Of a DNA stretch of 64,000 bases, positions 3,395 through 24,123 are shown one piece after another. Source of the stretch: Clostridia bacterium. Lineage in GTDB: Bacteria > Bacillota > Clostridia > TANB77 > CAG-465. Within the stretch, counting starts at the first letter, position 1. Each line of letters begins with the position of its first letter. Made by a program: the position numbers and the translations under genes. Location: contig JAUNGP010000009.1 of NCBI GenBank assembly GCA_030524345.1, positions 1-64,000 on the forward strand, written 5' to 3'. The notes under the pieces are model-generated. The model ran no database searches, had not been told where the DNA came from, and saw only the letters and a program-made list of their open reading frames with translations.

Positions 3395-4582
3395 ATGAAA
3401 CAATTTCATATTTACAAATTAAAAGAATTACTAAAACTAGTGCTATTTATCATTACGCTATTCATTTTACTAATCTTTTCTAAGGAAAACTTAGACTCTG
3501 TAAAATCAAGTATTCATCTATTTTTACAAAGCGTTTTTCCATCACTTTTTCCATTTATTTTATTTACTAATGTCATACTAAATACAAACATAACAAATCT
3601 ATTAGATAAACTACTTGGAAAAAGCCTATCTTATCTCTTTCATATTCCAAAAAATTCTAGTATAGCCATTATTACTGGATTTTTATGCGGATTTCCAATG
3701 GGAGCAAAAAGTGTGGCAACACTGTTCTCAGAAGGAAAAATAGATAATGTCAGTGCTAAAAAATTACTTACTTTTGTCAATAATTGTAATCCATCATTTA
3801 TTATCTCTACTATTGGAATTAGTATGTTCTATAATATAAAAGTGGGAATTTTGTTGCTCATTTCACATTATCTTTCTGCGATGATCATTGGTATTACCTA
3901 TACTAGATTAAACTCTTCTGTTATTATACACGAAAAAAAAGAGTTTTTAAATAGTTTTGATGAAAAAAGTATTAAAAACAAAGGAAAAAAAGATAGTTTT
4001 TTTAACATAATTAAAAAAAGTATCTCTAACACATTTATTTCACTTGGTACGATTCTTGGCTTTATTATCATATTTAACTTATTATTTCATATTATCAATA
4101 TATATTTGATAAAGCTAAATGTGCCAGAAACAATTAGAAGTACCATATCTTGTCTCTTCGAAGTAACCAAAGGTTGTCATGATATATCTTCTCTAAATAT
4201 AGATATTACATTGAAAGTAGTACTTGCTTCCTTTGGTTTAGGATTTAGTGGGCTTTGTATTATTTCGCAAATATACTCCACGATATCTGATTTTCATTTC
4301 AAAATTTCAGATATTCTAATACCCAAATTCATACAAGGTATAATTTCTGGATGTATTACATATATTTTAATAAAATTTACTAATATATTTGATTCTTCTA
4401 CTTTAAACGTATTTAATAATACGGATGCATACTATCTATATTACTTAAATAAAATAAAAAATGCATACTTAACTTCCACTATCATAATTGTACTGGCACT
4501 CATGCTATATTTAATTTTAGAAAATATACACAAAAAAAGTAGTCATAAGACTACTTTATTAAAGAAGGGGGGTAAACTATAA
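3395..4582 (+). CDS. ylbJ: Sporulation integral membrane protein YlbJ-like
   Basis: This 395-residue polytopic membrane protein has about eight hydrophobic segments and the nucleoside-recognition (Gate-like) motif CGFPMGAK near residue 94, as in YlbJ. YlbJ is made in the mother cell and is needed for a proper spore cortex. The ATG at 3395 is preferred over an in-frame GTG at 3386, because AGGTG (3384-3388) lies 6 bases before the ATG and overlaps the GTG. The last codons form a hairpin, so the 3' end doubles as a terminator-like element. It is one of the few plus-strand genes. Confidence 0.85.
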   Translation: MKQFHIYKLKELLKLVLFIITLFILLIFSKENLDSVKSSIHLFLQSVFPSLFPFILFTNVILNTNITNLLDKLLGKSLSYLFHIPKNSSIAIITGFLCGFPMGAKSVATLFSEGKIDNVSAKKLLTFVNNCNPSFIISTIGISMFYNIKVGILLLISHYLSAMIIGITYTRLNSSVIIHEKKEFLNSFDEKSIKNKGKKDSFFNIIKKSISNTFISLGTILGFIIIFNLLFHIINIYLIKLNVPETIRSTISCLFEVTKGCHDISSLNIDITLKVVLASFGLGFSGLCIISQIYSTISDFHFKISDILIPKFIQGIISGCITYILIKFTNIFDSSTLNVFNNTDAYYLYYLNKIKNAYLTSTIIIVLALMLYLILENIHKKSSHKTTLLKKGGKL

Positions 4583-4603
4583 GTTTACACTAATATTATT
4601 AGT
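4536..4603 (+). terminator. Three consecutive inverted repeats at the ylbJ 3' end
   Basis: Three back-to-back hairpins are visible: AAAGTAGTC/GACTACTTT (4536-4557, inside the ylbJ coding end), GTAAACT/AGTTTAC (4572-4588, spanning the stop codon) and ACTAATA/TATTAGT (4589-4603). The first ends with a TTTATT tract. They may end or attenuate ylbJ transcription or shield the next gene. Confidence 0.5.
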
Positions 4604-4645
4604 AAATAAATTTAAAATATACATTTTTTTCAAGGAGGTATAAAA

Positions 4646-4894
4646 ATGGAAAAAAATCAGGGATTCTTTGATCCATACAACTTTAATATTCCGCAAAATA
4701 ATATGAATATGAATCAACAAATGCCAAATCAAATGGCATCTGATATGTCCTTAGGACTTGATAATATAGCAAACCCTGCTATGTATTATGAACAACAATA
4801 TATGTATTATAGGTATCTTACTCAAGTTCTTGAATACAAAATAAAATTAAGAGAATGGGAAAATATGAACAGAGAACAAAAACAATCAAAATGA
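4646..4894 (+). CDS. Small Asn/Met/Gln/Tyr-rich protein of unknown function
   Basis: An 82-residue protein with a low-complexity N-terminal half rich in Asn, Met, Gln and Pro, a Tyr-rich patch (YYEQQYMYYRY) and a charged amphipathic C-terminal helix. It has no signal peptide or membrane segment. A strong AAGGAGG precedes the ATG and a perfect terminator follows. The composition and its place after ylbJ suggest a spore coat or spore-associated protein, but this is inference. I do not recognise a family. Confidence 0.7.
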   Translation: MEKNQGFFDPYNFNIPQNNMNMNQQMPNQMASDMSLGLDNIANPAMYYEQQYMYYRYLTQVLEYKIKLREWENMNREQKQSK

Positions 4895-4897
4895 AAA

Positions 4898-4934
4898 ATA
4901 TCTCTAAATGCTTTGGCATTTAGAGATATCTTTT
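4898..4934. terminator. Bidirectional terminator
   Basis: A perfect 14-base stem (4898-4911 with 4916-4929) with a TTTG loop and T-rich flanks on both strands. It separates the convergent small plus-strand gene and the minus-strand reductase gene. Confidence 0.85.
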
Positions 4935-5670
4935 ATACTACGATACCGCCATTTGGACTAATCACTTGTCCTGTGATATATTCTGCCTCTTTAGATGCTA
5001 AAAATTTTACCACGCCAGATATATCGTCAACATGACCTATTCTTTCTAAAGGTACATTTTCACAAAATTCTTTTAACTCCTCTTGGGTTAATATGGCATT
5101 CATATCCGTATCAATCGCACCAGGTGCCACAACATTTACTGTTATTCCAGATGGTCCAAGTTCCTTTGCAAGTGCTTTTGACATACCAATCACTGCTGCC
5201 TTGGCTGTAGAATAATTCACTTCCATAGAAGAACCTACCATTCCCCAAATAGATGAGATATTGATAATTTTCCCCGCTTTCTTATGAATCATACACTTTT
5301 TTAGTACAGACTGTGTTACATGAAATGTTCCAATAACGCTTACATTAAGCATATTTTGGATATCTTCAATTGTTATATCTGTAAATAATTTATACTCACA
5401 TATCCCCGCGTTATTTACCAATACATCAATATTTCCAAAAGTATCTAATACTGAATCTACCATCTTATCTACTTGATTTCTATCTGAGATATCTGCTTGG
5501 TATATCATAGAAGAATATCCTATTTCATCAAGCTCTTTTTTTAGAGCATTTGCCGACTCTTTTGAAGTATTATAATTAATACAAACTTGGTATCCACTTC
5601 TTGCAAATTCTTTTGCAATGGCTGCCCCAATTCCTTTTGCCGCGCCAGTTATTAATACTGTTTTATTCAT
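4933..5670 (-). CDS. Short-chain dehydrogenase/reductase (FabG-like)
   Basis: A 245-residue classical SDR. The NAD(P)-binding TGAAKGIG (8-15), NNAG (86-89) and the catalytic Ser140, Tyr153 and Lys157 (YSTAK) are all present, as is the C-terminal PNGG. It resembles 3-oxoacyl-ACP reductase, but many FabG-like proteins act on other substrates. The start overlaps the stop of the flippase-like gene by ATGA, so it is translationally coupled to a glycolipid-type operon rather than to fatty-acid genes. That context leaves its substrate open. Confidence 0.8.
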   Translation of the reverse strand: MNKTVLITGAAKGIGAAIAKEFARSGYQVCINYNTSKESANALKKELDEIGYSSMIYQADISDRNQVDKMVDSVLDTFGNIDVLVNNAGICEYKLFTDITIEDIQNMLNVSVIGTFHVTQSVLKKCMIHKKAGKIINISSIWGMVGSSMEVNYSTAKAAVIGMSKALAKELGPSGITVNVVAPGAIDTDMNAILTQEELKEFCENVPLERIGHVDDISGVVKFLASKEAEYITGQVISPNGGIVV

Positions 5671-6707
5671 TTAATCTCCTCACTTACCTTTTCTCTTCTT
5701 CTCACCATGATCATCACAATACTACCAATGATAATTGGTAAATAAAAAGTATATAGTCTCCAAAATAATATTCCCATGTTGATGGTTTGAGGAGTAAAGA
5801 AATTTTTAAATATAATTAAAAACCCCCCCTCCGCTGCAATTCCAGCACCTGGTATTGGTACAAACGCCATAACCATACTCAAAAAACTCTGAGCAGATAT
5901 TATTTTAAAAAGTGAAACCCCACTTAAGCCAAAAGCTCTATACACCATATATGTTACCGAAAAAAATACAGTATGTTGTATTAATGATAAAACTACCATT
6001 TCAAAAATCGCCATTTTTTGTTTTTTCATCATTTTAAAATTCGCATGAAAATTATCTATACTTTTTTCTAGCTTATTCATTCTTTCTTCTGGATTCTTTA
6101 CTATTTTGATTCTAGCTAATAATTTAAAAAATATTTTTGAAGCATTTAACACAATGTTTTTATTCACACCTATTAATACTAAAAAAACAATCACAGCAAA
6201 ATTTACTAAAAATCCAACCAATGCCAAATTCATAAAATTACTTACTAAACTTTTAAAATAGGAAAATTGAAATATAATAATCACGAGTGTATATAGTACA
6301 AGCGTTCCTTGATATACAATAAATTTAATTAGTAAAATATTAGCAGAATCACTAATTCTTTTTCCTTCTTTGACCAGCGAGACAGCTTGCATCGGTTGAC
6401 CTCCAGAGGAAAATGGTGTTATTGAATTAAAAAGCTGACCTATCATCGAAACTCTAAAACTATTAATGAATAATTGATCCTTATACATCGTTTTTGATAT
6501 AATGTATAAATTCAATGATTCTATAAGCCAATACATTACCATACAAGCAATACCTGCAAACATCCAATATATATTTACATTTTTGATAACATTTACAATA
6601 TTATCAATTCCATCTACTTTTAGCATATAGATTGCAATTCCAATGGTAAGTACAAAAATAAATGAAATATTGATAATATTTTTTAAATTACTCTTCTTAG
6701 TTTTCAT
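5667..6707 (-). CDS. Flippase-like membrane protein (LPG synthase TM-domain/YbhN family)
   Basis: The 346-residue protein has about eight transmembrane segments and the family signature around TPFSSGGQPMQA (residues about 96-107) and PIPGAGIAAEGG near the C-terminus. This family includes the N-terminal flippase domain of MprF and stand-alone YbhN/UPF0104 proteins, which are thought to move lipids across the membrane. Its start overlaps the end of the GT4 gene by 11 bases, with GGAG 8 bases ahead. The pairing suggests it flips or regulates the glycolipid made by that enzyme, an inference. Confidence 0.8.
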   Translation of the reverse strand: MKTKKSNLKNIINISFIFVLTIGIAIYMLKVDGIDNIVNVIKNVNIYWMFAGIACMVMYWLIESLNLYIISKTMYKDQLFINSFRVSMIGQLFNSITPFSSGGQPMQAVSLVKEGKRISDSANILLIKFIVYQGTLVLYTLVIIIFQFSYFKSLVSNFMNLALVGFLVNFAVIVFLVLIGVNKNIVLNASKIFFKLLARIKIVKNPEERMNKLEKSIDNFHANFKMMKKQKMAIFEMVVLSLIQHTVFFSVTYMVYRAFGLSGVSLFKIISAQSFLSMVMAFVPIPGAGIAAEGGFLIIFKNFFTPQTINMGILFWRLYTFYLPIIIGSIVMIMVRRREKVSEEIK

Positions 6708-7758
6708 TCCTTTTTCTCCATGTTTTTTTCAAGCCTCTTTTATATATTTTATTATAATAAGCTCTCCACATTTTTGCAACATTTTCTTCACTATAATATT
6801 TACTGCACTCATGCGCCATTTGCGATGCCTTATTATAATATATTTGATCTTGACTGAGCTTTTCTATCTCATTTTTAAACTCAAGATTGTTCTTTCCTTT
6901 TAAATAGTATCCCTCTAAAATTCCTTTATATAATTCAATATCTCTTAAAAGTATTGGTAATTTACAATTAGCACTTTCAAGTACTGTCATTGGAAACAGT
7001 TCCTCATAGGAAGGTAAAAACATGATATCAGCCATATTGTATACTTCGTTCATTTCTTCTCTTGGAACGATTCCTAAAAATTTAACATTACTTGGCGGAT
7101 TTTCTGTTAACTTCTTAATCTGACTATATCCATCAGAAATCTTTTTAAATGAAAACCCTCCTGCCCATACAAATTCAATATCAGGTAACATTTTTGCAAC
7201 TTCAATAAAGTCGGCTACCCCTTTTCTAGTTTGCAACTGTCCAACACAAAGTACCACAAACTTTTTGCTATCAACATGATATTTCTTCCTAATACTATTT
7301 TTACTCTTTTTGTCGATTTTATAAAATCTCTTTGAAGATACATAATTTGGAATATATGTAATTTTTTCTCTATTGATCCCATATGCAACCAATTTATCAA
7401 TAAAATATGGATTTACAGTAATTAAATAATCCATACTTTTATAAAAACTAATTACATATTTGTAAAATACCTTTTTAGCAAATCTTGGAAGTTTGATACT
7501 ACTTTCCAAAGTTTCTGGTAAAAAGTGTACATACCCAACAGTACTAGATTTTATCTTCGTAAACGGTATTGTTAAAAAGAATTCTAAATTAATTGTATGA
7601 TAATGTCTAATATCAGCAAACTTTACTTGATTGATTTCTACTTTATACATATCTTTTAAATTATTTTGAACTAAGCTTACTTGCTCCTCATATGCAGAAC
7701 CAACCCCCTGTCCTTTAACAGAAGTTGCCCTTGAAAGCATATTTATTGTTCTTTGCAT
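6697..7758 (-). CDS. GT4 glycosyltransferase, probably of membrane glycolipids
   Basis: A 353-residue GT-B fold enzyme. The acceptor half has GYVHFLPETLE, and the donor half has GQLQTRKGV and a nucleotide-sugar ExxE-type segment (EELFPMTVLES). This pattern resembles Firmicute glucosyltransferases that make (di)glucosyl-diacylglycerol, which anchors lipoteichoic acid, so a glycolipid role is likely but unproven. The ATG at 7758 is chosen over an upstream in-frame codon at 7788, because GGAAG lies 8 bases before it and the longer start falls within the -10 element. It leads a three-gene operon with a flippase-like protein and an SDR. Confidence 0.75.
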   Translation of the reverse strand: MQRTINMLSRATSVKGQGVGSAYEEQVSLVQNNLKDMYKVEINQVKFADIRHYHTINLEFFLTIPFTKIKSSTVGYVHFLPETLESSIKLPRFAKKVFYKYVISFYKSMDYLITVNPYFIDKLVAYGINREKITYIPNYVSSKRFYKIDKKSKNSIRKKYHVDSKKFVVLCVGQLQTRKGVADFIEVAKMLPDIEFVWAGGFSFKKISDGYSQIKKLTENPPSNVKFLGIVPREEMNEVYNMADIMFLPSYEELFPMTVLESANCKLPILLRDIELYKGILEGYYLKGKNNLEFKNEIEKLSQDQIYYNKASQMAHECSKYYSEENVAKMWRAYYNKIYKRGLKKTWRKRNEN

Positions 7759-7787
7759 AATAAAAACACTTCCTTTTTTATGCCTCA

Positions 7788-7816
7788 ATTATATCATATA
7801 ACGAGTATAAAAACAA
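7788..7816 (-). promoter_or_regulatory. Promoter of the GT4/flippase/SDR operon
   Basis: TTGTTT (7811-7816), 17-base spacer and perfect TATAAT (7788-7793) on the minus strand. The -35 region lies in the T-rich tail of the preceding gene's terminator. Confidence 0.55.
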
Positions 7817-7857
7817 TAAGATAACACATATATTACATTCTTGTAATATATGTGTTA
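7811..7857 (-). terminator. Terminator of the coiled-coil protein gene
   Basis: A perfect 16-base stem (7822-7837 with 7842-7857) and a U-rich tail in the minus direction, 24 bases past the stop codon. Confidence 0.8.
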
Positions 7858-7881
7858 CTACTAAACACTAAACTCTATAAC

Positions 7882-10095
7882 TTATACTACTGGTTCTTCT
7901 GAATTTTCCCTATCAGGGTTATCTCTATTAGGATTTGCAGTACGTTCTTCTGCTTCTACTTTCTTTTCCGCATCTTTTCTCAAATCATATTGATCTTGAT
8001 AGCTATCTCTTGTAGTCTCTGAACAATATCTCTCCATTCTAGGTCCAGATGCATTCATTCTTCCTGTGCCTATCATAATATGCATTTCCTCTTCAGTAAG
8101 TAGCATATCATCAGTAACGGCTTCACCACGGGCCAAAGCATCATCTATTGCACTTGCCTTATCAGAGATTGCATCTATTCTGTCTCTCATTGTTACCACT
8201 TCAGGAATGTTTGCCTCATCAATGTCTGGTAAATCACTTTCTGGTACGCCATATGCTATATATTGATTATATTTTGCATAGTCCTCAAATGTAAGTTCTT
8301 CACCTGCATCTATTTTTGCTTGTATCTCATCTCTAAATATTTCTCTTTCCCTATCAAATTTAGCGTTTATTTTTTCTTCTCTTTCATCTAATATATCTTC
8401 ATCATCTCTTGTTTGACCGCTTAAATCTTCTTCTAGATCAGGCTCTTCTTCAGGTGCTTCTTGCCTACGTGTTGGATCTGCTTTTACTTTTTCTGCTACT
8501 CTTTCAATTTCTTTTGTAAGAGCCAAAGCTTTACCAGTTCTTACAACACTTCCAAATACTCTCTCAAATCCCTTATTATCGTCAGCCATTCTCTCAGTCA
8601 TTAAATTAATAGTCTCTTTTAAACTGTCTTTTTCCTCTTTAGAAGTTGCAGGATCCTTAAGTTTTGCCCTCATTTTTTCTATCTCTTGAGACGCTTCTTC
8701 TTGAGATTCTTTGAAATCTTCTATTGCTTTATCAAACATTTTTCTTGTTGCCTCTGGAATATTATCATAATCATATATTACTTGTGGCTTTTTCTGCCAG
8801 AATTTCCATCCTGTATTAGGATCAAAGTATTTTTGTAATTCTTTAAACTCTGGACTTCTATTATCCATCTTTAAAACAAGTGATAATGGATGTCTACCAT
8901 CAGGCTTTTTAGAATCTTTTGCGACTAAATCTGCCATTTCCATAGTTGAGTCAGATATCGTACTTGCATATTCACTTAATAGATTTCTATCTGCCTGACT
9001 TAACTCACTACCTTTTTCATCTAATGTTTTAGTTGCTTTTTCTATAATTTCAAGACCACCATGTTTCAAACATATTTTTCTTTGCTCTGGTGTAAATGTA
9101 CTATATTTTCTCATATACTCAAGTGCTTGTCTTGCAGTCATTTCTGTTCCATTGAACTTTAATATAGCGTCAGTTTCACCAAGGATTTCTTCCTCTGTTG
9201 GAACATGCTCTTCTTCTCCTGGTTGTTGAGGCTGTCCTTGCTGTGGTTGACCTTGTTGTTGTGCAGGAGCTCCACCACCTGCTACTGGGGCACCGCCACC
9301 TTGTTGTCTTTGACCACCGCCTTGTTGCTGACCCTGTGGTTGACCTTGCTGTCCTGCTCCAGGATTTTGACCGCCTTCTTGCCCTTCTCCTTGCTCATGT
9401 CCTTCTCTATCTTGTCTTCCACCATTTTGCTCTTGGCCTTCTCTTTCCTCGTCTTCTCTTTTCTTAGAATTACGAACAGCCCATCCGCCAAATCTTTCTT
9501 GACATGTAACATTTAAAGCTTCTTTTTGATATGTAATTGTTTCTCTTGCATGTGACATTCTTTGTCCCATTACTTTTAATTGCTCAGGAAACTTAGTTTT
9601 AAAATACTCACGTTTTTTAGTAAGTTCAGCTAATGATTTTTGTTCGGCTTCAGTAAGCTCTGGATTTTCAGAATTCTCTTCATGCGCCCTTTGTTTATCT
9701 TCTAATGCTTTTATCTCCTGTTCAACTTTTTCAGCTTCTTTTTGTGCCTCTTCTTTTAGCTTATCTAATTGCTTTTGCATTGCTTCTAATAACTTTTGCT
9801 CTCTTTTGAAGAATTCCCCTGAAACTTCTCTTACTTGTTTTAAAATTTCTTCTGATATCACAGTGTCTTTTGCAGCTTCTACTCTTTGCTCAACCAAAGT
9901 ATTTTCCTCTGGAGTTAAATGATCAAGATCTTGAATTGTTCCATCTGCATATAAAGTATTTATAATCGCTACTCTTTCTGCATCTGTCATCTCTAATTCA
10001 ATTTGGTCTAAATTAATTCCAGATTTTAACCTCTCAGACATATTCTCAGAATATTCTCTTAAATCTTTTGTTAGATTTGTTACTTGTTCTTCCAT
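7882..10095 (-). CDS. Large acidic coiled-coil protein with Gly/Gln-rich centre, unknown
   Basis: I do not recognise this 737-residue protein. Residues about 85-165 form a long charged helix likely to coil. Residues about 212-293 are low complexity, starting with an Arg/Glu-rich basic-acidic stretch and passing into Gly/Gln/Pro repeats (GQQQGGGQ, QGQPQQGQPQQ). Residues about 300-560 are helical with Glu/Lys runs, and the C-terminus is acidic. There is no signal peptide or membrane segment, so it should be cytoplasmic. GGAGGAG precedes the ATG. A 39-residue ORF lies 21 bases upstream, and the pair has its own promoter and terminator. A scaffold or disordered-linker role is a guess. Confidence 0.8.
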   Translation of the reverse strand: MEEQVTNLTKDLREYSENMSERLKSGINLDQIELEMTDAERVAIINTLYADGTIQDLDHLTPEENTLVEQRVEAAKDTVISEEILKQVREVSGEFFKREQKLLEAMQKQLDKLKEEAQKEAEKVEQEIKALEDKQRAHEENSENPELTEAEQKSLAELTKKREYFKTKFPEQLKVMGQRMSHARETITYQKEALNVTCQERFGGWAVRNSKKREDEEREGQEQNGGRQDREGHEQGEGQEGGQNPGAGQQGQPQGQQQGGGQRQQGGGAPVAGGGAPAQQQGQPQQGQPQQPGEEEHVPTEEEILGETDAILKFNGTEMTARQALEYMRKYSTFTPEQRKICLKHGGLEIIEKATKTLDEKGSELSQADRNLLSEYASTISDSTMEMADLVAKDSKKPDGRHPLSLVLKMDNRSPEFKELQKYFDPNTGWKFWQKKPQVIYDYDNIPEATRKMFDKAIEDFKESQEEASQEIEKMRAKLKDPATSKEEKDSLKETINLMTERMADDNKGFERVFGSVVRTGKALALTKEIERVAEKVKADPTRRQEAPEEEPDLEEDLSGQTRDDEDILDEREEKINAKFDREREIFRDEIQAKIDAGEELTFEDYAKYNQYIAYGVPESDLPDIDEANIPEVVTMRDRIDAISDKASAIDDALARGEAVTDDMLLTEEEMHIMIGTGRMNASGPRMERYCSETTRDSYQDQYDLRKDAEKKVEAEERTANPNRDNPDRENSEEPVV

Positions 10096-10116
10096 AATTT
10101 TTTCTCCTCCCTATAC

Positions 10117-10236
10117 TTAATATACTAACTCTTTAAGTGATGCAATAAAATCATTAAAGCTATCATCAGCTTGCTCAAGCACCTCTGTAGCATCTTCTAG
10201 TTCTTTAAATTTTGCCTCTATCTCCTCAATTGACAT
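10117..10236 (-). CDS. 39-residue acidic helical small protein
   Basis: A short ORF (MSIEEIEAKFKELEDATEVL..., ending KELVY) preceded by AGGTGGAG and a consensus promoter 30 bases upstream. Its heptad-like Ile/Leu/Phe spacing predicts one amphipathic helix. It sits just before the 737-residue coiled-coil gene and is probably co-transcribed, so it may bind that protein. No family is recognised. Confidence 0.65.
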   Translation of the reverse strand: MSIEEIEAKFKELEDATEVLEQADDSFNDFIASLKELVY

Positions 10237-10265: not shown

Positions 10266-10294
10266 ATTATAATACATATATTAAAAAAAGTCAA
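10266..10294 (-). promoter_or_regulatory. Promoter of the 39-aa/737-aa unit
   Basis: TTGACT (10289-10294), 17-base spacer, TATAAT (10266-10271). The -35 hexamer is part of the stem of the upstream galE terminator. Confidence 0.7.
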
Positions 10295-10338
10295 CACTTT
10301 TCTAGTAGCATATTTTCTTAATTTATAAGTGTGTTGAC
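10283..10338 (-). terminator. Long-loop terminator after galE
   Basis: AAGTGTGTTGAC (10327-10338) can pair with GTCAACACTT (10290-10299) across a long AT-rich loop, followed by a run of seven U in the minus direction. The stem's 3' arm overlaps the next promoter. Confidence 0.5.
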
Positions 10339-10358: not shown

Positions 10359-11363
10359 TTATTTTAATTGCTTTTGAAAATTCCAACTATCTTTACACAT
10401 ATCTTCTAATGTTCTTTTGGCTTCAAATCCAAGTTCTACCTTTGCCTTCGTTGGATCAGAATAACATGTTGCTATATCTCCTGCTCTTCTTGGTGCTATT
10501 TTATATGGTATCCTAACGTGGTTTGCTTTCTCAAAAGCTTTCACCATATCAAGTACACTATATCCAACGCCAGTACCAAGATTATATATATGCATTCCTT
10601 GTTTATCTTTTCTTAATTTATCCAAAGCTTTCAAATGTCCAATTGCAAGATCTACGACATGTATATAATCTCTGACTCCAGTTCCATCAGGTGTATTATA
10701 ATCATTACCAAATACAGATAATTCTTTTAATGTTCCATCGGCAACTCTAGCAATATATGGCATTAAGTTTGCAGGAATTCCTTTTGGTTCTTCCCCTATC
10801 AAACCACTTTCATGTGCACCGACTGGATTAAAATATCTTAAAATAGCAATATTCCACTCATTATCAGAATGATACAAATCTTTTAAAATCTGTTCTACCA
10901 TAAGTTTAGAAGTCCCATATGGGTTTGTGGTATTTCCAGTCTTAGTATCTTCAGTAATCGGAACTACCTCTGGATCTCCATAAACGGTAGCAGAAGAGCT
11001 AAATACGATACTTTTTACATTAAATTTTTTCATTGTATCCAGTAATACCAAAACAGTAGAGACATTATTAATATAGTATTCTACTGGTTTCTGAACAGAT
11101 TCCCCAACAGCTTTATATGCAGCAAAATCAATGACAGCCTCTATCTGATTTTCTGAAAATATTCTCTCTAATAATTCTCTATCTATCATATTCCCTTCAT
11201 AAAATTGAAAGTCTTTTCCTGTTATCTTCTTAATATTATCTAATGCCCTTTGATCACTATTTGAAAAATTATCTAATAATACTAATTCTTCTCCTCTTTC
11301 CAAAAGTTCTACACTTGTATGTGAGCCAATATACCCAGCTCCACCAGTTATTAAAATTGCCAT
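10359..11363 (-). CDS. galE: UDP-glucose 4-epimerase GalE
   Basis: GalE interconverts UDP-glucose and UDP-galactose, here the likely source of UDP-Galp for the Glf mutase at 15542-16699. The 334-residue protein has the NAD-binding GGAGYIGSH at 5-13, the catalytic SSATVYG and NPYGTSK (Tyr-xxx-Lys) and the RYFNPVGAH motif. The start at 11363 follows GAGGGGGAAAT; an upstream in-frame codon at 11420 falls in the promoter and is rejected. It has its own promoter, so it can be expressed apart from the polysaccharide genes upstream. Confidence 0.95.
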
Positions 11364-11391
11364 ATTTATTTCCCCCTCTAATTCGAATTTA

Positions 11392-11420
11392 ATTATAACA
11401 ATAATCATATCAAAAGTCAA
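11392..11420 (-). promoter_or_regulatory. Promoter of galE
   Basis: TTGACT (11415-11420), 17-base spacer, perfect TATAAT (11392-11397), 29 bases before the galE ATG. Confidence 0.7.
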
Positions 11421-11438: not shown

Positions 11439-12575
11439 TTAGGCTTCCAAAAGCTTATCTAAGAATTCTTTCCATTCCTTAGAAATATTTGATACAAAAA
11501 ACTTTTCTGCAGTTTTTCTAGCTTTAGTACCAAATTCTACTCTTTTTACGCTATCCTCGATTAGCATACATGCTTCTTCTGCCATTTGATTTTCATTCCT
11601 ATCATCTACTAAAATTCCATCTTCTTTATTTGTAATAATTTCTCTTGGACCAACATCAATATCATAACTCACGCAAGGTACATTATGAGCCATAGCCTCA
11701 ACAATGACAAGAGAAAAGCTTTCCGATTTTGAGGTAAGCAAAAATATAGATGAATGATCAAGCTCATGTTCAATTTCATCACTTGTCAGCCTTCCAGTAA
11801 GTATTACTTTATCTTTAAGACCTAGTGATAGAATTTGCTTCTCCAATTTTTCTCTTTGGCTTCCCTCTCCAATTATTTTTAAACACCAATCAGGATGTTT
11901 TTTCTCAATAATAGAATACACATTAATAAGAGAGGTGAAGTCCTTTACTGGCTCTAGCCTTCCAACACTAATAATCTGCTTATTATGTAAGTTTGTCCCT
12001 TCTCCATGATAATCACTGATCATATTAGGTATTAGAACCACTCTTGGTCTCTCTCGACACTCTCTAAACCACGTCTCATATAACTCCCTTGCCCTTTCTG
12101 TCATGACAATAAGATAATCTACATTTTTAAAAGATTTTTTCACTTTTCTTTTATACTGATTTGTATTAATATAGGAATGTTCTTGAGATATAACAACAAT
12201 ATCCTTTCTTTTAATTTGCTTTGAAAATTCTATTCTAGATGAAATTAAAATATCTGTGTCTAATTCATCTACAATTTTGCCAATTCTAAAAAATTTAGTA
12301 TAAAGAATCTTAAGTCCTTTTTTTAGCTCACTAAAAAGTTTCTTTACTTGAAATTTTTTCAATGCTTGTACTATTTCTTTATGATTTGGACCATAATCAA
12401 ATATATATCTTACTTTTATTCTACTATCTAATTTGTAAAAGGGCTTTCCCAAAATATTATATAGTGAAATGATTTCAATTTCATATTGATCAGCAAGACT
12501 ATTTACAAGCGTACTCACTTGTTTTTCTATTCCCCCATAATTTAGATGTAGCATTAAAAAAGTTATTTTGTTCAT
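11439..12575 (-). CDS. GT4 glycosyltransferase
   Basis: A 378-residue GT-B enzyme with an N-terminal NYGGIEKQV acceptor-loop motif, the donor-site SVGRLEPVKDF and the C-terminal E-x7-E element (ESFSLVIVEAMAHNVP). It transfers a sugar from a nucleotide donor to a glycan acceptor; the sugar cannot be read from sequence. The ATG at 12575 has AAGGAG 6 bases ahead. An alternative ATG at 12593 overlaps the upstream stop as ATGA but lacks a good ribosome site. It is the last gene of the GtrB-like/GT4 pair. Confidence 0.8.
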   Translation of the reverse strand: MNKITFLMLHLNYGGIEKQVSTLVNSLADQYEIEIISLYNILGKPFYKLDSRIKVRYIFDYGPNHKEIVQALKKFQVKKLFSELKKGLKILYTKFFRIGKIVDELDTDILISSRIEFSKQIKRKDIVVISQEHSYINTNQYKRKVKKSFKNVDYLIVMTERARELYETWFRECRERPRVVLIPNMISDYHGEGTNLHNKQIISVGRLEPVKDFTSLINVYSIIEKKHPDWCLKIIGEGSQREKLEKQILSLGLKDKVILTGRLTSDEIEHELDHSSIFLLTSKSESFSLVIVEAMAHNVPCVSYDIDVGPREIITNKEDGILVDDRNENQMAEEACMLIEDSVKRVEFGTKARKTAEKFFVSNISKEWKEFLDKLLEA

Positions 12576-12589
12576 CTTTTTCTCCTTTA

Positions 12590-13525
12590 TCATTCTATAT
12601 TTATTTTCTCATCTATAATGTATTCTGGTCTTCCTTTATTTTCATCATAAATTCTAGAGATGTATTCGGACATGATCCAAATAGAAAGTAGTTGAACTCC
12701 AGCAAAAAAGGTAATAGCAACCATAATAGAAGCCCATCCAGGAGTTAAGTTTCCAAACTGAAAAATATAAGCAAGCAAAGCATATATTAACAACAGAAAA
12801 GATATCAGTATTGAGAACATTCCGATATATCCGACCAATTTTAAAGGCTTTGTTGAAAAACCAATAATACCATCTGATGCAAGTTTTAACATTTTCTTTA
12901 ATGGGTACTTAGTTTTTCCGGCAAACCTCTTTTGTCTTTCATATTCATATGCCTTTTGCTTAAATCCTACCCAACTAAAAAGCCCTCTAAAAAATTTATT
13001 ATGTTCTGGTAGTTCATTCATTACGTCTACTACTTTTCTATCAACAAGCCTAAAATCTCCAGTATCTTTTGGTATCTCAACATCAGATAATGCATTCAAT
13101 GTCTTATAAAACATCTTAGCAGAAATTAATTTAAAACCAGATTCTCCTTTTCTAGATTTTCTTTTTCCATATATAATCTGATTCCCATCTTTCCAAAGCT
13201 TTAACATATCTGGTAAACATTCTGGTGGATCTTGTAGGTCTGCATCTATGATGAGTATAACATCTCCCGTAACTACCTTAAGGCCTGCAGAAACAGCATT
13301 TTGATGTCCAAAATTCCTTGAAAACGATATGATTTTTACTTTATGATCAGTGCGTGCTATCGTTTTTAGAATTTCCAAAGTTTTATCTTGACTACCATCA
13401 TTAATAAAAATAAATTCATAGTCATATTCTGGCAATTTATATACAACTTCTTTGATTCTTTTATAGCATTCCTTTGATACTTCGGCCTCATTGTACATGG
13501 GAACCACAATTGAAATTTTTTTCAT
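12590..13525 (-). CDS. GtrB/DPM-like polyprenyl-phosphate glycosyltransferase
   Basis: The 311-residue protein has an N-terminal GT2 domain (VVPMYNEAE, NDGSQDKT, DADLQDPPE) and two C-terminal membrane helices (about 230-255 and 268-290), the layout of GtrB/YfdH enzymes. These attach one sugar to undecaprenyl phosphate on the cytoplasmic face, and a flippase then moves it outward for side-chain glycosylation by GT-C enzymes. AGGAG lies 7 bases before the ATG at 13525. The small carrier at 16715-17065 could be the matching flippase. Confidence 0.85.
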   Translation of the reverse strand: MKKISIVVPMYNEAEVSKECYKRIKEVVYKLPEYDYEFIFINDGSQDKTLEILKTIARTDHKVKIISFSRNFGHQNAVSAGLKVVTGDVILIIDADLQDPPECLPDMLKLWKDGNQIIYGKRKSRKGESGFKLISAKMFYKTLNALSDVEIPKDTGDFRLVDRKVVDVMNELPEHNKFFRGLFSWVGFKQKAYEYERQKRFAGKTKYPLKKMLKLASDGIIGFSTKPLKLVGYIGMFSILISFLLLIYALLAYIFQFGNLTPGWASIMVAITFFAGVQLLSIWIMSEYISRIYDENKGRPEYIIDEKINIE

Positions 13526-13552
13526 AATCAAACTCCTAAATCTAATATCTAA

Positions 13553-13581
13553 ATTATATCATTTAAAGATTTATGTGTAAA
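13553..13581 (-). promoter_or_regulatory. Promoter of the GtrB-like/GT4 pair
   Basis: TTTACA (13576-13581), 17-base spacer, perfect TATAAT (13553-13558), 27 bases before the start codon. The rest of the 147-base gap up to 13672 is AT-rich with no other clear signal. Confidence 0.6.
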
Positions 13582-13672
13582 CAGATTTTTTGCTAATTTA
13601 TTTGCTTTTTTGAAAAAATATATTACTATATAAACTGAAACATTTTTTCATTTTATACAATAATATATTTTT

Positions 13673-14464
13673 TTATTTATTTGTATTAATAGCATTTTTA
13701 TACTGTCTCATCAACATTTTAGCAATTACTTTAGGCCAAAATTTAAGAAACATTTGATAATCTTCTTCTAACCTTTTATTACTCTCTATTGTTGCGGAAG
13801 TTTCAGATTCTTCATGAATCCTATGAAACATTAAATATTCTGGTATATATTCAAAACTTCCTTTATATTGAATACACGCAAGCCACGTATCCCAATCAAT
13901 ATTAGATTTCATGCCCGTTTTATAAGGTGTTTTTCCAACAATTTTAGTATTTAGAGTAACACTTGGGCAACATATAGAATTTCCAAAGGCCAGAGCTATC
14001 TTTTTAAAGAATTTAGACCTCTTAAAAAACTTTAACGGAAAAAGTAACATCTCTTTAATTTTTAAATTTTTTGTAAGATTAATCACTTTTCCCTCTTTTA
14101 TTTCCTGATATTTTGTAAATAAAATGACAATATCCTCTCTTTTACTGTTACTTATTCTCTCCATTATTTTTTCTAAATAACTTTCTGAATATACATCATC
14201 TTGATGAATAATAGTAACATAATCTGTATCTGTTTTACTTACGGCAAAATTCCAGTCTTCACCAATTCCTTTTTTACCATTATTGATGTATAACTTAATA
14301 TGATATTTATCCGCAAGTGATGTAATATACTCGTTTGGAGTTGAAGTACTCATGATAACATTCGACTTTACCTTTTGATTGATGATTGATTTAATACACT
14401 CTTCCAAATATTTTGATTCCTTATATGCACATATAGCAAATGTATGATTTATATTATTTTCCAT
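13673..14464 (-). CDS. GT2 glycosyltransferase
   Basis: A 263-residue GT-A enzyme. FAICAYKESKYLEECIKSI opens the fold and the metal-binding IIHQDD (D-x-D-like, QDD) follows a GEDWNFAV segment. The fold is standard for family 2, but sugar and acceptor are unknown. The ATG at 14464 is preferred because GGAGG lies 8 bases ahead, whereas earlier in-frame starts overlap the ribosome site. A hairpin separates it from the upstream GT2 gene, so it may be expressed at a lower level. Confidence 0.8.
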   Translation of the reverse strand: MENNINHTFAICAYKESKYLEECIKSIINQKVKSNVIMSTSTPNEYITSLADKYHIKLYINNGKKGIGEDWNFAVSKTDTDYVTIIHQDDVYSESYLEKIMERISNSKREDIVILFTKYQEIKEGKVINLTKNLKIKEMLLFPLKFFKRSKFFKKIALAFGNSICCPSVTLNTKIVGKTPYKTGMKSNIDWDTWLACIQYKGSFEYIPEYLMFHRIHEESETSATIESNKRLEEDYQMFLKFWPKVIAKMLMRQYKNAINTNK

Positions 14465-14479
14465 ATTCATATCCTCCAC

Positions 14480-14509
14480 AAAAAATACAACACAAATTGT
14501 GCTGTATTT
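14480..14509 (-). terminator. Hairpin between two GT2 genes (attenuating terminator)
   Basis: AAATACAACACAA (14483-14495) and TTGTGCTGTATTT (14497-14509) pair with one G-U wobble, followed by a U run in the minus direction, directly behind the 14511-15545 stop codon and just before the next ribosome site. Partial read-through is likely, since I see no separate promoter for the next gene. Confidence 0.6.
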
Positions 14510-14510
14510 A

Positions 14511-15545
14511 TTACCACTTGATGTCTATTTTTAATACATTTATCATAAATTTATAACATAGCAAAAATGGTCTAAATAGATGTAATACATACACTTTCTT
14601 CATAACCGCACTTCTAAAATTACACTTATGCTTTAAAGTATACCCTATATTTAAGTATTTCGATTTTCTCCATAAACTAAAATTCTCATTTAAAAATTTT
14701 CGATTCTTTTTTAATTCTTGTGAAAAGTTACAATTCTTGTCACTCGATATTCGAAACATAAGCGATATACCAAAATGCACAAAAGCCATGTCATCTATAA
14801 TTTCTAAAAGTTTTTTTCCATTTTTATTACTAGCATATATCTTTTTAATCTCTATCATTGCATCCTGCGTAGAAGCAATTTGCTCCTGCTTAATTGTAGT
14901 AATAATAGAGCCTGCTCTTATCATGTAATAATATAGGGCTGCATCAATAAAAGCGATCTTTTTTACATTTAAATATGCCAAAAGTTGAAACATCATATCA
15001 TCTAATATTTTAGGTGGTTTTTCTAAATTTTTCATACTTTTCAAAACTTTAGCTTTAAACAGTTTATTCCAAGGCGCTCCATTAATGGAAATAATATCTT
15101 CTGGATTCTTACTCATATCAATTACTTTTCCGTTATATTGAGTCATTTCTGTAGAAAAGATATGCTCAGTTTCCGTATCCACTCGATAAAATCCACAAAC
15201 AGTAATATCTGCATTTGTCTTTTTGGCTGCAGTATACAATTTTTCTGCATAATCTAGAGCAACATAATCATCAGAATCCACAAAAGCAATATAGTCACCA
15301 GTTGCTTTTCTAATTCCATCATATCTTCCTTTCCAGACCCCTTCATTTTTCTTATCTATAATGACTACCTTATCTGGATATTTTTCTTGATAATCTTTTA
15401 ACATATTCAAGCAATTATCTGGAGAACCATCATTGATACATATAATTTCTATATCTTGCAATGTTTGGTTTACCAAACTGTCCATGCTTCTTTTTAAATA
15501 TTTTTCTACTTTATAAACTGGTACAATAATGCTTACCTTTTTCAT
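14511..15545 (-). CDS. GT2 glycosyltransferase
   Basis: A 344-residue GT-A enzyme with the canonical IIVPVYKVEKYL, INDGSPDNC and the metal-binding FVDSDDY (DxD) motif at about 91-97. Such enzymes are common in capsule and wall-glycan loci. It starts by overlapping the glf stop codon (ATGA), so glf and this gene are translationally coupled. A galactofuranosyltransferase role using the Glf product is attractive but is inference from this coupling. Confidence 0.85.
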   Translation of the reverse strand: MKKVSIIVPVYKVEKYLKRSMDSLVNQTLQDIEIICINDGSPDNCLNMLKDYQEKYPDKVVIIDKKNEGVWKGRYDGIRKATGDYIAFVDSDDYVALDYAEKLYTAAKKTNADITVCGFYRVDTETEHIFSTEMTQYNGKVIDMSKNPEDIISINGAPWNKLFKAKVLKSMKNLEKPPKILDDMMFQLLAYLNVKKIAFIDAALYYYMIRAGSIITTIKQEQIASTQDAMIEIKKIYASNKNGKKLLEIIDDMAFVHFGISLMFRISSDKNCNFSQELKKNRKFLNENFSLWRKSKYLNIGYTLKHKCNFRSAVMKKVYVLHLFRPFLLCYKFMINVLKIDIKW

Positions 15546-16699
15546 TCTTCCACCTCTTCTACTAAATTTAGCGCTCTATCTATTACAGCATCCATATTAT
15601 AATATTTATATTCAGCTAGTCTTCCACACAAATAAAAGTTTTTGATATTTGCCAAATCATTGACGTATTGGTTATATAATTCCAAATTCTCTTTTTGAAC
15701 AATTGGATAATAAGGATCAGACTTAGTATTTTGATAATCATATTTTAAAGGATACTCTTTTAAAATTGTAGTTTTATGATCTAATTTTTGATTTGTTAAA
15801 TATTTAAATTCTGTTATTCTTGTAAATTTTTCTGAGGTATTATAATTAACAACAGAATTTGTTTGATAATAGTCTTTATCATATTGCTCAAAAACCAAAT
15901 TTAAAGATCGATATGGTAGTGCACCATATTGATAATTTAAAAGCTCGTCCACTGCTCCTGTAAAAAATACTTTTCCATGAAATTCTTCATTGTTTACAAA
16001 AGTTTTTCCATTTTCAAAATCAAGTTTTAAAATATCTAAAGCATTGGTATTTAGTTTGATTGTAATATTTTCATGATCAAGCATATTTTCAATAATTGAT
16101 GTAAACCCCTCTTTTGGCATATACTGAAATTGATCAGAAAAGTATCTATCGTCGTATCCTAAAACTACAGGTACTCTATTGATCACTGAATTATCAATTT
16201 TATCTACCGGCATTTCCCACTGTTTTGCTGTATACTCGGCAAACACTTTTTGGTATACATATTTACCAAATTCCTTTATGATAACATTGTTATGATTAAT
16301 TAAGTCCAAAATAGATACTTTTGTATTTTCTCCGAATTCTTGATTTAACACTTCTTTTATTTGATCAGCTTTCTCTTTTTCAAATAAAATTTCAAGAGAT
16401 TTATAATTAAATGGAATTGGAACAAGTTGTCCATCAATATTTCCAATTACTTTATGATCATATGGATAAAATTCACCAAACTTTTTTAAAAATTCAAATA
16501 CATTTTTCTTACTTGTATGAAATATATGTGGCCCATATAAATGAATTCTTACTCCATTTGTATCGTAGCATTCATACATATTACCAGCAATATGTGGCCT
16601 TTTATCAATTAACAAAACTTTTTTTCCACGTTCTGCCATCTTTCTAGAAATAGTCGCACCTGCAAATCCAGCACCAACTACCAAAACTTCATAATTCAC
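15542..16699 (-). CDS. glf: UDP-galactopyranose mutase Glf
   Basis: Glf is a FAD enzyme that converts UDP-galactopyranose into UDP-galactofuranose. The N-terminal dinucleotide motif VVGAGFAGAT, the RPHIAGNMY segment, YGPHIFHT and the C-terminal FLCGRLAEYKYYNMD are family hallmarks, and 385 residues is the usual length. The start is GTG (16699), with GGGGGAG 7 bases ahead. Its presence says the exported glycan contains galactofuranose. GalE downstream can supply the substrate. Confidence 0.95.
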   Translation of the reverse strand: MNYEVLVVGAGFAGATISRKMAERGKKVLLIDKRPHIAGNMYECYDTNGVRIHLYGPHIFHTSKKNVFEFLKKFGEFYPYDHKVIGNIDGQLVPIPFNYKSLEILFEKEKADQIKEVLNQEFGENTKVSILDLINHNNVIIKEFGKYVYQKVFAEYTAKQWEMPVDKIDNSVINRVPVVLGYDDRYFSDQFQYMPKEGFTSIIENMLDHENITIKLNTNALDILKLDFENGKTFVNNEEFHGKVFFTGAVDELLNYQYGALPYRSLNLVFEQYDKDYYQTNSVVNYNTSEKFTRITEFKYLTNQKLDHKTTILKEYPLKYDYQNTKSDPYYPIVQKENLELYNQYVNDLANIKNFYLCGRLAEYKYYNMDAVIDRALNLVEEVEE

Positions 16700-16714
16700 A
16701 ATAATCTCCCCCTA

Positions 16715-17065
16715 TTATTTTATATTCATACAAATGACACCTGAAATTGTTAATGCTATTCCTATAAATCCCATAATACTGATATTTTCATGAAATAGCC
16801 CCATAGCCATTAAGAGTATGATAATTTGAGATATTCCGGTGGCTATTGGTACAATATAACTTAGATCAAACATTGTCAGTATTTTCGTCCAAAGTAGAAA
16901 ACTTACAATATAGATTAAATACCCAAGTATACTAATAAAGCTCATTGACAAAGCAAAATTGCCATCTTTAATTCCCATTGTAGTAGATGAGCCACCAAGC
17001 TTTATTAAAGCCATTCCAGATGTAGTACAAACTAAATAAATAGCTACTAATATATATTTTAACAT
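16715..17065 (-). CDS. Small multidrug-resistance/EamA-like membrane carrier
   Basis: A 116-residue protein with four membrane helices, resembling EmrE-type and half-size EamA-type transporters (SGMALIKLGGSS near the N-terminus, SYIVPIATGISQ in the third helix). In glycan loci such half-size carriers (compare ArnE/ArnF) can flip undecaprenyl-phosphate sugars. Neighbours are Glf and a GT2/DUF2304 pair. A flippase role is thus inferred from context, not shown. The start at 17065 follows GAGGAGAAAG; the longer frame to 17107 is hydrophilic and overlaps the preceding gene. Confidence 0.7.
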   Translation of the reverse strand: MLKYILVAIYLVCTTSGMALIKLGGSSTTMGIKDGNFALSMSFISILGYLIYIVSFLLWTKILTMFDLSYIVPIATGISQIIILLMAMGLFHENISIMGFIGIALTISGVICMNIK

Positions 17066-17093
17066 ATTATTCTTTCTCCTCTTTATTAAAAAA

Positions 17094-17450
17094 TTATTTT
17101 TTATCACTTGTCTCTTCCTTCTTCAACTTATCAACTTCATATTCCATAATAGATAGTCTTTGAGCAAGTTCTATTATTTTTTCGTTTTGCTTTTCCATCT
17201 TTTTTGTATTTCTAAAATTAATAAATAGTAAAAATACAATTGCAAGTAAAAACAGCAATGAAGGAGGATAAGCAATATTTAGCATAACAGATATTTTATC
17301 GATCAACTTTGGAAATATAGCAAGTATTAGCGAAACAATAGCACCAAATACCCAAAATATGCTTTCCTCAACTGAAAATTCTTTTTTTCTAATTACGATA
17401 AATATATAGATAATAAATATTACAGCTATTGCAATAAAAAAGTAATTCAT
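17094..17450 (-). CDS. DUF2304 membrane protein
   Basis: The 118-residue protein has three membrane helices (about 3-20, 31-50, 60-80) and a charged coiled C-terminal tail (LSIMEYEVDKLKKEE). It matches the DUF2304 type, which is regularly found beside DPM-like GT2 genes. Its ATG overlaps the GT2 stop codon by one base (TAATG), so the two are coupled and probably work as a complex at the membrane. The precise role is unknown. Confidence 0.8.
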   Translation of the reverse strand: MNYFFIAIAVIFIIYIFIVIRKKEFSVEESIFWVFGAIVSLILAIFPKLIDKISVMLNIAYPPSLLFLLAIVFLLFINFRNTKKMEKQNEKIIELAQRLSIMEYEVDKLKKEETSDKK

Positions 17451-18178
17451 TATTTTTTCCTCCTTCTACCTATATTATTTAGCATGATCACCAAAACATT
17501 ATAAAACATCAGCAACATATATTTAATAGGTTTAATAATTCCGCCATGCATACTTTCGCCAAACTCACGATTTCTCATTTTAATAGATACTTCTTCTACT
17601 TTATATCCTTGCATTATCATATCAATTACCAAATTAGCATCAGGATATTCTGGATATTCTCCTATTTTAGAATATTTTTCTATTACCCTTCTATTTAAAA
17701 CCTGAAAACCTGATAATGGATCACTAATTTTTTGCCTACAAGCAAGTTTGATTAAAAATGAAAAGAAACCTGTCCCAATCTTCCTAAAGAAAGGAGCATT
17801 GTAATTACCCTTCTCCAAATATCTAGAACCAATTACAATATCTGCGTTTGTTTCTTTCATTCTTTTTACAAGTTTATCCGCCTCTTTAGGAATGTGTTGA
17901 CCATCCCCATCTAATTGTATCACATAATCATATCCATTCTTATATGCATACTTAATACCAGTTTGAACCGCCCTTGCATATCTAAAATTAAATACAGTTG
18001 TAATACATTTTATCCCATTTTTTTCTACAATCTCTTTTGTGTTATCTTTTGAACAATCATTTATTACTAACACATCAGCATATGGCAAGTCTCTTTTTAA
18101 TTCGTCAAAAACTTTCTGTATATTTTGTGCCTCATTATATGCCGGTATTACTACTAACACCTTAAATTTTTCCTTCAT
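17450..18178 (-). CDS. DPM-like GT2 glycosyltransferase
   Basis: A 242-residue GT-A enzyme with VVIPAYNEAQNI, INDCSKDNT and the metal-binding QLDGDGQH (DxD) motif, similar to dolichyl/polyprenyl-phosphate mannosyltransferases but with only one weak C-terminal hydrophobic stretch. The coupled DUF2304 gene likely supplies the membrane anchor. It has its own promoter, and heads a run GT2, DUF2304, small carrier, glf, GT2. Confidence 0.85.
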   Translation of the reverse strand: MKEKFKVLVVIPAYNEAQNIQKVFDELKRDLPYADVLVINDCSKDNTKEIVEKNGIKCITTVFNFRYARAVQTGIKYAYKNGYDYVIQLDGDGQHIPKEADKLVKRMKETNADIVIGSRYLEKGNYNAPFFRKIGTGFFSFLIKLACRQKISDPLSGFQVLNRRVIEKYSKIGEYPEYPDANLVIDMIMQGYKVEEVSIKMRNREFGESMHGGIIKPIKYMLLMFYNVLVIMLNNIGRRRKK

Positions 18179-18226
18179 TTGTTCTAGCCTCTCCTTCCTC
18201 CATTATATCATAATGGCATTTACCAT

Positions 18227-18255
18227 ATTATAATATAAAGTTTTACATATTTCAA
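18227..18255 (-). promoter_or_regulatory. Promoter of the GT2/DUF2304/glf run
   Basis: TTGAAA (18250-18255), 17-base spacer, perfect TATAAT (18227-18232), located right behind the upstream DUF2142 stop codon at 18259. Confidence 0.6.
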
Positions 18256-18258
18256 CAA

Positions 18259-20253
18259 TTATCTATATACACTTGTAACAATTGTAAAAATACTAATAGA
18301 ATGTATCAAAATCGTCAAATAGCAATACATTAAATTCTTATTTTTACTCTCTACTTTCAATATATTAGAAGAAATTCCAATATATAAAATTAATACCGCT
18401 GGAATAAAATATCTTGATTGTATTCCCCATATTGTTCGGCTTCCAAAAGTAGTCCAACCAATAAAAGCTGCTGAATAAACGATTCCAAATAACATGATTG
18501 CAGGAATAATCAATATGATTCTTTCCTTTTTATTTAATTTTACATCATTTGCATCATCACAAAAAATTAGTAATAAATAACAAAGTGTTACAATAAAACT
18601 TAACAATGCTTTATGCGCAACAGTTGAATATAAAAATCCATCTGCAAGTGAAATTAAAACGTCTGATTGAATTCTTGTTACCATCGTATTATAATATATT
18701 TTTAATGTATCTATTGGATTAGATAATATATAACTTAATGAATAATGTTCGCCATCTTGAGCATCAATTTCTGGTGCCATAGCACTACTTACCAAATACG
18801 ATAATATAACAGAGAATACAAGGAACCCAATTTTTATTATCAAAGCTTCTTTTTTATTTTTAAATTTCTCACTTGGTATTAAGAATAATGTCAAGATAAT
18901 TGGAAAATATCCAAATTTACAAAGAGATATTACTAACATCAAAACTCCTAATAATATTTTATCCTTAATATCTAAGCTTTTATCTGAATATTTACATTTT
19001 AAAACATATGCCACAAACATAATACAGGCGATGTTTGTTAAATAATCTTGATTAATAGCTGCCGATTGTTGTAAGAAAATAGGAAATAAGCAAACTACAA
19101 AAAATATTTTTTGAAATTTTGGTGTCATTTTTAATGCCAAATATGCTCCAATTACCACTATCATCAAATCTACAAATCTTGACAATAATAACAATAATAA
19201 TGGAGAAAGTCCTATGTTTCTTCCTATCAAAATAACGATTGTAGAAGGCAAGTAAGGAAGTGGCGCCAAATATTTTGTATTACTATAATTAACATCCACA
19301 AGTTCAGTAGTATCTTCATAATCGCAATTCAAATAGATATCAGAATAATAATTGATACCCGAATATGCTGTTCCTTGCAAATGTACACTGTGAAGGTACT
19401 TATTACAAAAGTCATCCAAAAATTTTGGTATTTTTGTATATCCACCATCATCTTCATTTTTTAAATATGACATTTCAAAACTTTTACAAAAATGGCTTGA
19501 TTCATCTGGAACATTAAAAGGTGGTACTAAAAAAGCCATAGAAATGCCCATTATAATTGCAATATATAAAAAGATATTTTGTAGGTTATTCTTACTGTTT
19601 TCTCTTAAGAAATATACACCAGTAATTAGTGATAGTATGATCATCATTATTACTAAAATTTTTGACACCGAAAGTATAAAATAAAAGGTACTAACAAATA
19701 TAATAAACACTCCTATTGAAAAAGCTACAATATGTCTAATTTTTAAAGTATTCTCGTTCACTTTTTCAAAAAAACGATAGATCAAATAAATGCCAATATA
19801 TACTACTGGTAATAATACAATCAACCACAATATACTGTAAAAATTGAAAGATTCTTTTACTATACTAAAAATTGAATGATAATCACTGTATATATTTCCA
19901 TCCATTTCCTGAATGATCCCGTTTTTTCTTATATCAATATTGGCATGATCATCTGCTATAAATTCCATATAAAGACTATCAACAACAGAAAGCTCTAGGT
20001 TTATCTCTGTTTTCTCATTTGCAAATAATAAACCAGTTTCCTCATCTATCAATAACTGATGATTGTCTTTTTTTATTTTTTCAATTGGTATCTTAGTATT
20101 GTTGATATAAATACTGTTCAATTTTACATGGTCATCTAAATCAAAAGTACACTCTAATGTTTTTTGGGCAAGTCCACATATACTAAAATGAATCATGCCT
20201 ATCATTGATATAATGATTGTTATAACTCCTATTACAATATTCCTCTTTTTCAT
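18259..20253 (-). CDS. DUF2142 polytopic membrane protein (copy 1)
   Basis: The 664-residue protein begins with a signal-anchor helix, then an extracytoplasmic segment (about 30-125), then about a dozen membrane helices. It has the DUF2142 hallmark VPPFNVPDESSHF (about 245-257), which resembles the acidic-residue loop of GT-C glycosyltransferases. GT-C enzymes use lipid-linked sugars outside the membrane. It would therefore fit the GtrB-like partner, an inference. It is about 660 residues like its tandem neighbour and clearly a duplicate of it. Confidence 0.75.
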   Translation of the reverse strand: MKKRNIVIGVITIIISMIGMIHFSICGLAQKTLECTFDLDDHVKLNSIYINNTKIPIEKIKKDNHQLLIDEETGLLFANEKTEINLELSVVDSLYMEFIADDHANIDIRKNGIIQEMDGNIYSDYHSIFSIVKESFNFYSILWLIVLLPVVYIGIYLIYRFFEKVNENTLKIRHIVAFSIGVFIIFVSTFYFILSVSKILVIMMIILSLITGVYFLRENSKNNLQNIFLYIAIIMGISMAFLVPPFNVPDESSHFCKSFEMSYLKNEDDGGYTKIPKFLDDFCNKYLHSVHLQGTAYSGINYYSDIYLNCDYEDTTELVDVNYSNTKYLAPLPYLPSTIVILIGRNIGLSPLLLLLLSRFVDLMIVVIGAYLALKMTPKFQKIFFVVCLFPIFLQQSAAINQDYLTNIACIMFVAYVLKCKYSDKSLDIKDKILLGVLMLVISLCKFGYFPIILTLFLIPSEKFKNKKEALIIKIGFLVFSVILSYLVSSAMAPEIDAQDGEHYSLSYILSNPIDTLKIYYNTMVTRIQSDVLISLADGFLYSTVAHKALLSFIVTLCYLLLIFCDDANDVKLNKKERIILIIPAIMLFGIVYSAAFIGWTTFGSRTIWGIQSRYFIPAVLILYIGISSNILKVESKNKNLMYCYLTILIHSISIFTIVTSVYR

Positions 20254-20273
20254 GATATATCTATCCTTCCATA

Positions 20274-24110: not shown

Positions 24111-24123
24111 ATATTTTTCCTTT

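Follow-up and report, generated by a model that had tools for sequence, protein, structure and literature searches.

A genus of gut Clostridia, known from uncultured members, has as one of its core features a two-gene unit at a fixed locus, in which a short helical ORF precedes a gene for a large coiled-coil protein. At this locus the allele of the large gene has been replaced repeatedly, and the alleles are mosaic. The copy described here lies in the window, our term for the whole stretch of DNA that was analysed (64,000 nucleotides, positions 1 to 64,000 of contig JAUNGP010000009.1). Both ORFs are on the minus strand, at 10120–10236 and 7882–10095, just where the initial annotation of the sequence had put them, and they are bordered by the signals and anchor genes given below with the basis for each.

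4933–5670 (within 4933–7788), minus strand: SDR, downstream anchor (gene-order comparison)
5667–6707 (within 4933–7788), minus strand: flippase-like membrane protein, downstream anchor (gene-order comparison)
6697–7788 (within 4933–7788), minus strand: glycosyltransferase, downstream anchor (gene-order comparison)
7821–7858, minus strand: terminator-like hairpin with a 17-bp stem (sequence and folding)
7882–10095, minus strand: large ORF, 737 aa, net charge −59, without a membrane segment (ORF list)
10104–10110, minus strand: GGAGGAG, ribosome-binding site for the large gene, lying between the ORFs (sequence)
10117–10236 including the stop codon, minus strand: small ORF, 39 aa, acidic and helical (sequence, profile, dN/dS)
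10266–10294, minus strand: housekeeping sigma-type promoter TTGACT-17-TATAAT (sequence, conservation in aligned genomes)
10290–10338, minus strand: inverted repeat read as the galE terminator, arms 10329–10338 and 10290–10299 (sequence)
10359–11420, minus strand: galE, upstream neighbour and synteny anchor (gene-order comparison)

The dedicated promoter that had been proposed for the unit is borne out: the TTGACT-17-TATAAT element at 10294–10266, upstream of the small ORF, matches the consensus at 11 of 12 positions and is conserved in 14 of 14 aligned genomes; promoter-like matches in the region of the unit are no more frequent than expected by chance. Its −35 box falls inside the second arm (10290–10299) of the galE terminator repeat. 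This overlap of terminator repeat and promoter (window 10266–10338) recurs in most relatives, in which the position of the repeat is taken by a AAATAAAGTCAA...TTGACTTTATTT repeat with a run of T after it. At the other end of the unit, where a strong terminator had been noted, the 17-bp hairpin at 7858–7821 folds with z = −3.9 (z = −4.4 for its counterpart in the nearest relative) but has a weak U tail. Elsewhere in the window, an 82-aa Met/Asn/Gln-rich ORF (4646–4894, plus strand) adjoins a YlbJ-like membrane gene; this ORF shows ~51–64% identity across the genus and keeps its position.

The view that the unit belongs to no known family stands, as nothing emerged from six libraries (Pfam, NCBIfam, PHROGs, PADLOC, PDB, and BFVD). 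Searches of Pfam, NCBIfam, PHROGs, and PADLOC with the large proteins tested gave only weak coiled-coil noise, the matches to PADLOC anti-phage families being weak, coiled-coil, and to single members; a PDB sequence search with the large proteins tested gave nothing significant, and Foldseek returned no match with E < 0.001 against PDB and BFVD for the models searched. Searches of phages, plasmids, and viral contigs for relatives of the unit were negative, and we found no published report on the protein family. A BLAST-level search of 98 related genomes yielded one other copy of the large protein (in genome G024, 34% identity), and a scan of genome contigs with the large protein as query yielded no match. 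The same kind of scan with the small ORF as query yielded 13 loci in uncultured gut Clostridia.

Surveying gene neighbourhoods in related genomes, as had been suggested at the outset, placed the unit at the same spot in 23 of the 28 genomes of the genus, directly before the same SDR or glycosyltransferase-flippase-SDR genes. The typical locus holds a charged coiled-coil ORF of 400–760 aa, either between galE and SDR or upstream of glycosyltransferase-flippase-SDR. Fifteen of the 23 copies, including that in the window, carry a main-type small ORF, six form a second subgroup, and two others (G013 and G017) were assigned by position and architecture only. Two of the 23 (G015 and G021) came to light through a profile of the second subgroup; they lie away from galE and still directly before SDR. 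That the subgroups are joined by position rather than by sequence is a weak point. An HMM of the second domain gave a nonsignificant E = 2.1 between the window large protein and the main subgroup, and a profile-profile comparison gave 96% across a region in which part of the sequence is of low complexity; their homology, weak by sequence, is argued from position, from architecture, and from the small ORF. Among 241 genomes of the order, the main-subgroup profile matched nothing beyond the genus, and the second-subgroup profile had only weak coiled-coil matches outside it, none better than E = 1e-6.

In G007, the stretch directly upstream of the unit (L111:2527–7819) encodes a large SMC-like ATPase and holds one more ORF; the two are putative parts of a Wadjet-type defence system. 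G021 has two highly charged, coiled-coil-like ORFs just upstream of the unit (L175:1278–2684 and 3757–5463), and in G031, which belongs to a different genus of the family, a transposase-like fragment (L110:3–512) occupies the expected unit site upstream of the glycosyltransferase.

The small ORF precedes the large ORF in 22 of the 23 copies, against a background of 12 of 349 (~3%) other genes of at least 250 aa; being related, the 22 paired copies do not amount to 22 independent events. The initial annotation had cast the small protein as a partner of the large one and had counted any relative with the large gene and no small ORF as evidence to the contrary. Such a case exists in one genome only (L055 in G017), and the pairing in the remaining 22 agrees with a partnership in which the two proteins would bind each other. 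A profile of 12 other main-type small ORFs recovered the window small ORF at E = 9e-7 and that of G024 at E = 4e-5, each among ~1,080 ORFs. The small ORFs of the second subgroup have no detectable similarity to the main type and are likewise 39–43 aa long and in the same place, and the two copies found only via the large gene (G015 and G021) also carry one.

The small ORF is real, coding, and under purifying selection, with dN/dS of 0.05–0.25 in seven species pairs. Its tiny size and its place just upstream of the large gene would also suit a regulatory leader peptide, a reading that we regard as very improbable given this dN/dS, the conserved amino-acid pattern FI.SLK..V..Y, a length that in 21 of 22 genomes stays within 39–43 aa (the remaining one has 55 aa), and a strong RBS of its own. 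We rejected the idea that read-through fuses the two ORFs: the window and five relatives have them in the same frame, and in eight aligned relatives their frames differ. Covariation between the small protein and the N-terminal domain of the large one beyond phylogeny was suggestive only (partial Mantel, r = 0.19, p = 0.08).

AlphaFold2 supports the original description of the large protein as helical and coiled-coil segments with a disordered centre, and resolves the window protein into the following regions.

9424–9984, minus strand: N-terminal helical domain with a long coiled-coil hairpin, ~residues 38–224 (AlphaFold2, block pLDDT mostly 78–94)
9208–9423, minus strand: disordered Gly/Gln/Pro-rich linker, GC-rich, ~residues 225–296 (pLDDT <50)
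8479–9195, minus strand: second helical domain, ~residues 301–539 (AlphaFold2, block pLDDT 43–95, uneven)
7903–8409, minus strand: extra C-terminal helical domain, ~residues 563–731 (block pLDDT mostly 76–96, and alignment)

The low-complexity tract, as had been remarked, stands out in composition, with a GC content of 53% versus 29% for the window, nowhere in which is GC higher. A main-subgroup large protein is predicted to have two helical domains (block pLDDT mostly >90) and a disordered linker; the window protein was modelled at lower confidence with the same domain order plus the third helical domain, which by alignment it shares with its nearest relative, L004, and which main-subgroup proteins lack. 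All 14 large proteins have a negative net charge and none has a hydrophobic segment, the highest 19-residue hydropathy in any of them being 1.3. Since they carry no signal peptide-like or membrane segment, their sequences point to a cytoplasmic location.

The most telling property of the unit is its variability between close relatives. We compared three pairs of sister species (G004/G014, G019/G006, and G016/G026). Across these pairs the proteins on either side of the unit are nearly invariant (galE 98–99% and SDR 98–100% identical), the small protein is 67–79% identical, and the large protein is 26–29% identical in its N-terminal half and 28–62% in its C-terminal half. By BLASTN, DNA similarity of ~89–93% breaks off close to where the large ORF begins and returns immediately past its stop; within the ORF, two of the three pairs can still be aligned, and only in the second domain. 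The flanking genes are 66–84% identical at four-fold degenerate sites, and the aligned DNA of the N-terminal half is ~52% identical. Because the N-terminal half has thus diverged beyond the synonymous sites of its flanks, unconstrained drift since the species split is insufficient, and the allele has been replaced. Moreover, the two halves of the large protein differ in their nearest relatives, with the N-terminal halves of the sisters L035 and L036 being nearest to L042 and L043, respectively; the alleles are therefore mosaic. The small ORF seems to travel with the large-gene allele because its pS in the three pairs (0.55–0.69) exceeds the genome median of 0.32. In one second-subgroup pair, L052/L107, there was no replacement, only faster divergence (67% versus 88–91%).

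As a control, 53 syntenic orthologues were compared on one contig each of the sister species G014 and G004. Their median amino-acid identity was 92% (pS 0.32), and the large gene was among the very lowest. The other orthologues below 51% identity belong mostly to the adjacent polysaccharide/glycosyltransferase cluster (window 11439–28543, and its counterparts in G014 and G004), several genes of which are 46–51% identical between the sisters. Recombination that serves glycan diversity in this cluster could drag the unit along. That the large gene is simply a passenger of such a hotspot, carried by exchange of neighbouring polysaccharide genes and under no special selection, would fit the low-identity genes that lie a few kilobases off; we nevertheless consider it improbable, since galE, which lies between the unit and the cluster, and SDR on the far side retain their high identity in the same pairs and the breakpoints coincide with the ends of the large ORF.

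A scaffold or condensate-forming role had initially been proposed, and the modelled architecture is compatible with a polar or condensate-forming scaffold. PopZ-, PodJ-, and DivIVA-type polar scaffolds likewise consist of helical domains and a low-complexity linker that is acidic, and self-assembly is plausible; the unit, however, has no sequence or fold match to them, and allele swapping between sister species is not known for such scaffolds. A housekeeping scaffold that serves the cell pole, division, or the cytoskeleton and needs no more than a propensity for helices and coiled coils, while the sequence drifts freely and orthologues from other species are occasionally swapped in by chance, is possible but doubtful in our view. 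It would suit a single-copy gene found in most of the genus behind a strong housekeeping promoter, an architecture that is kept while the sequence changes, and the simple accelerated divergence of L052/L107. The three sister pairs, however, have diverged beyond what drift alone allows, and if chance replaced the allele again and again at a single locus, this would itself call for a reason. Extreme allelic divergence is not accounted for by a plain housekeeping scaffold by itself, and the pattern is that expected of a protein in an evolutionary arms race.

Among known systems, the S-layer cassette of C. difficile is the nearest parallel in evolutionary behaviour. There, slpA alleles reside in a hypervariable cassette (slpA, secA2, cwp66, and neighbours), hybrids occur, and Clostridioides difficile SlpA is a phage receptor (PMC8809339, PMC10100898). 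The unit shares with this cassette a fixed locus, one hypervariable gene, conserved flanks, and mosaics, but the surface features that define the cassette are absent: SlpA is secreted, while the unit has no signal peptide, wall-binding domain, or export system, and instead has a partner ORF of ~40 aa and proteins that are predicted to be all-helical and cytoplasmic. We think it quite unlikely that the large protein is a surface or secreted variable antigen of this kind, exported by an unrecognised route. The evolutionary pattern does fit hypervariable surface-protein loci, and the unit does adjoin a variable surface-polysaccharide cluster; the 14 large proteins, however, lack any segment suited to export or membrane insertion, no wall-binding family was matched in the family searches (Pfam and NCBIfam among the libraries), and no type VII secretion component exceeded its cut-off in the genus.

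Type VII secretion was considered separately, as its pairs of a small helical partner with an LXG or large WXG substrate recall the layout of the unit, where a helical protein of large size is encoded right behind a small helical ORF. Small partners in type VII pairs are, however, about twice as long as this ORF. No WXG100 or LXG domain was matched for the unit, no WXG100 protein exceeded the cut-off in the genus, and no EssC-type ATPase was found over the family cut-off in any of the 28 genomes, the weaker matches being as expected for FtsK/SpoIIIE. With EssC and WXG100 absent over the cut-off, secretion of the large protein by this route is unlikely, and we rejected it. The HsdS specificity subunits of type I restriction systems are similarly hypervariable, mosaic, cytoplasmic, encoded at a conserved locus, and helical in part. 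Unlike them, the unit proteins had no HsdS match in the family searches, and no methylase or nuclease gene lies beside the unit.

The explanation that we tentatively prefer is a core cytoplasmic two-protein complex whose alleles are replaced by recombination and diverge rapidly under selection by an antagonist, most plausibly phages. The unit would be expressed constitutively, with the small and large genes probably co-transcribed. The large protein would consist of two helical domains (three in the window) tied together by the disordered Gly/Gln/Pro linker, and the helix of ~40 residues, translated from the shared mRNA immediately ahead of it, would most likely pack on the N-terminal coiled-coil domain and license assembly. 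The locus is fixed, whereas its allele, repeatedly replaced by recombination within the conserved flanks, would also diverge quickly, because an antagonist that recognises the large protein, or that the large protein recognises, would favour alternative forms. Phages or competitors as the driver are a conjecture, and the antagonist is a guess because searches gave no phage or defence homology for the unit. The divergence of L052/L107 without replacement and the lack of a small ORF at L055 count against the explanation that we prefer. A bolder form of it, to which we give rather little credence, is a novel allelic recognition system, namely a core, all-helical complex of two proteins in the cytoplasm, with a large subunit that occurs in many trans-species mosaic alleles, held diverse by pressure from phages or competitors, and a matching subunit of ~40 residues.

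The unit illustrates that gene order and a short conserved companion ORF can join orphan genes invisible to homology search into one system. Genes that stay in place and exchange sequence between close relatives usually belong to the cell surface or to known immune systems. If a coiled-coil protein of the cytoplasm, accompanied by a tiny and seemingly obligate partner, behaves in this way in most species of a gut genus, selection would have a target within the cell that has not been recognised before.
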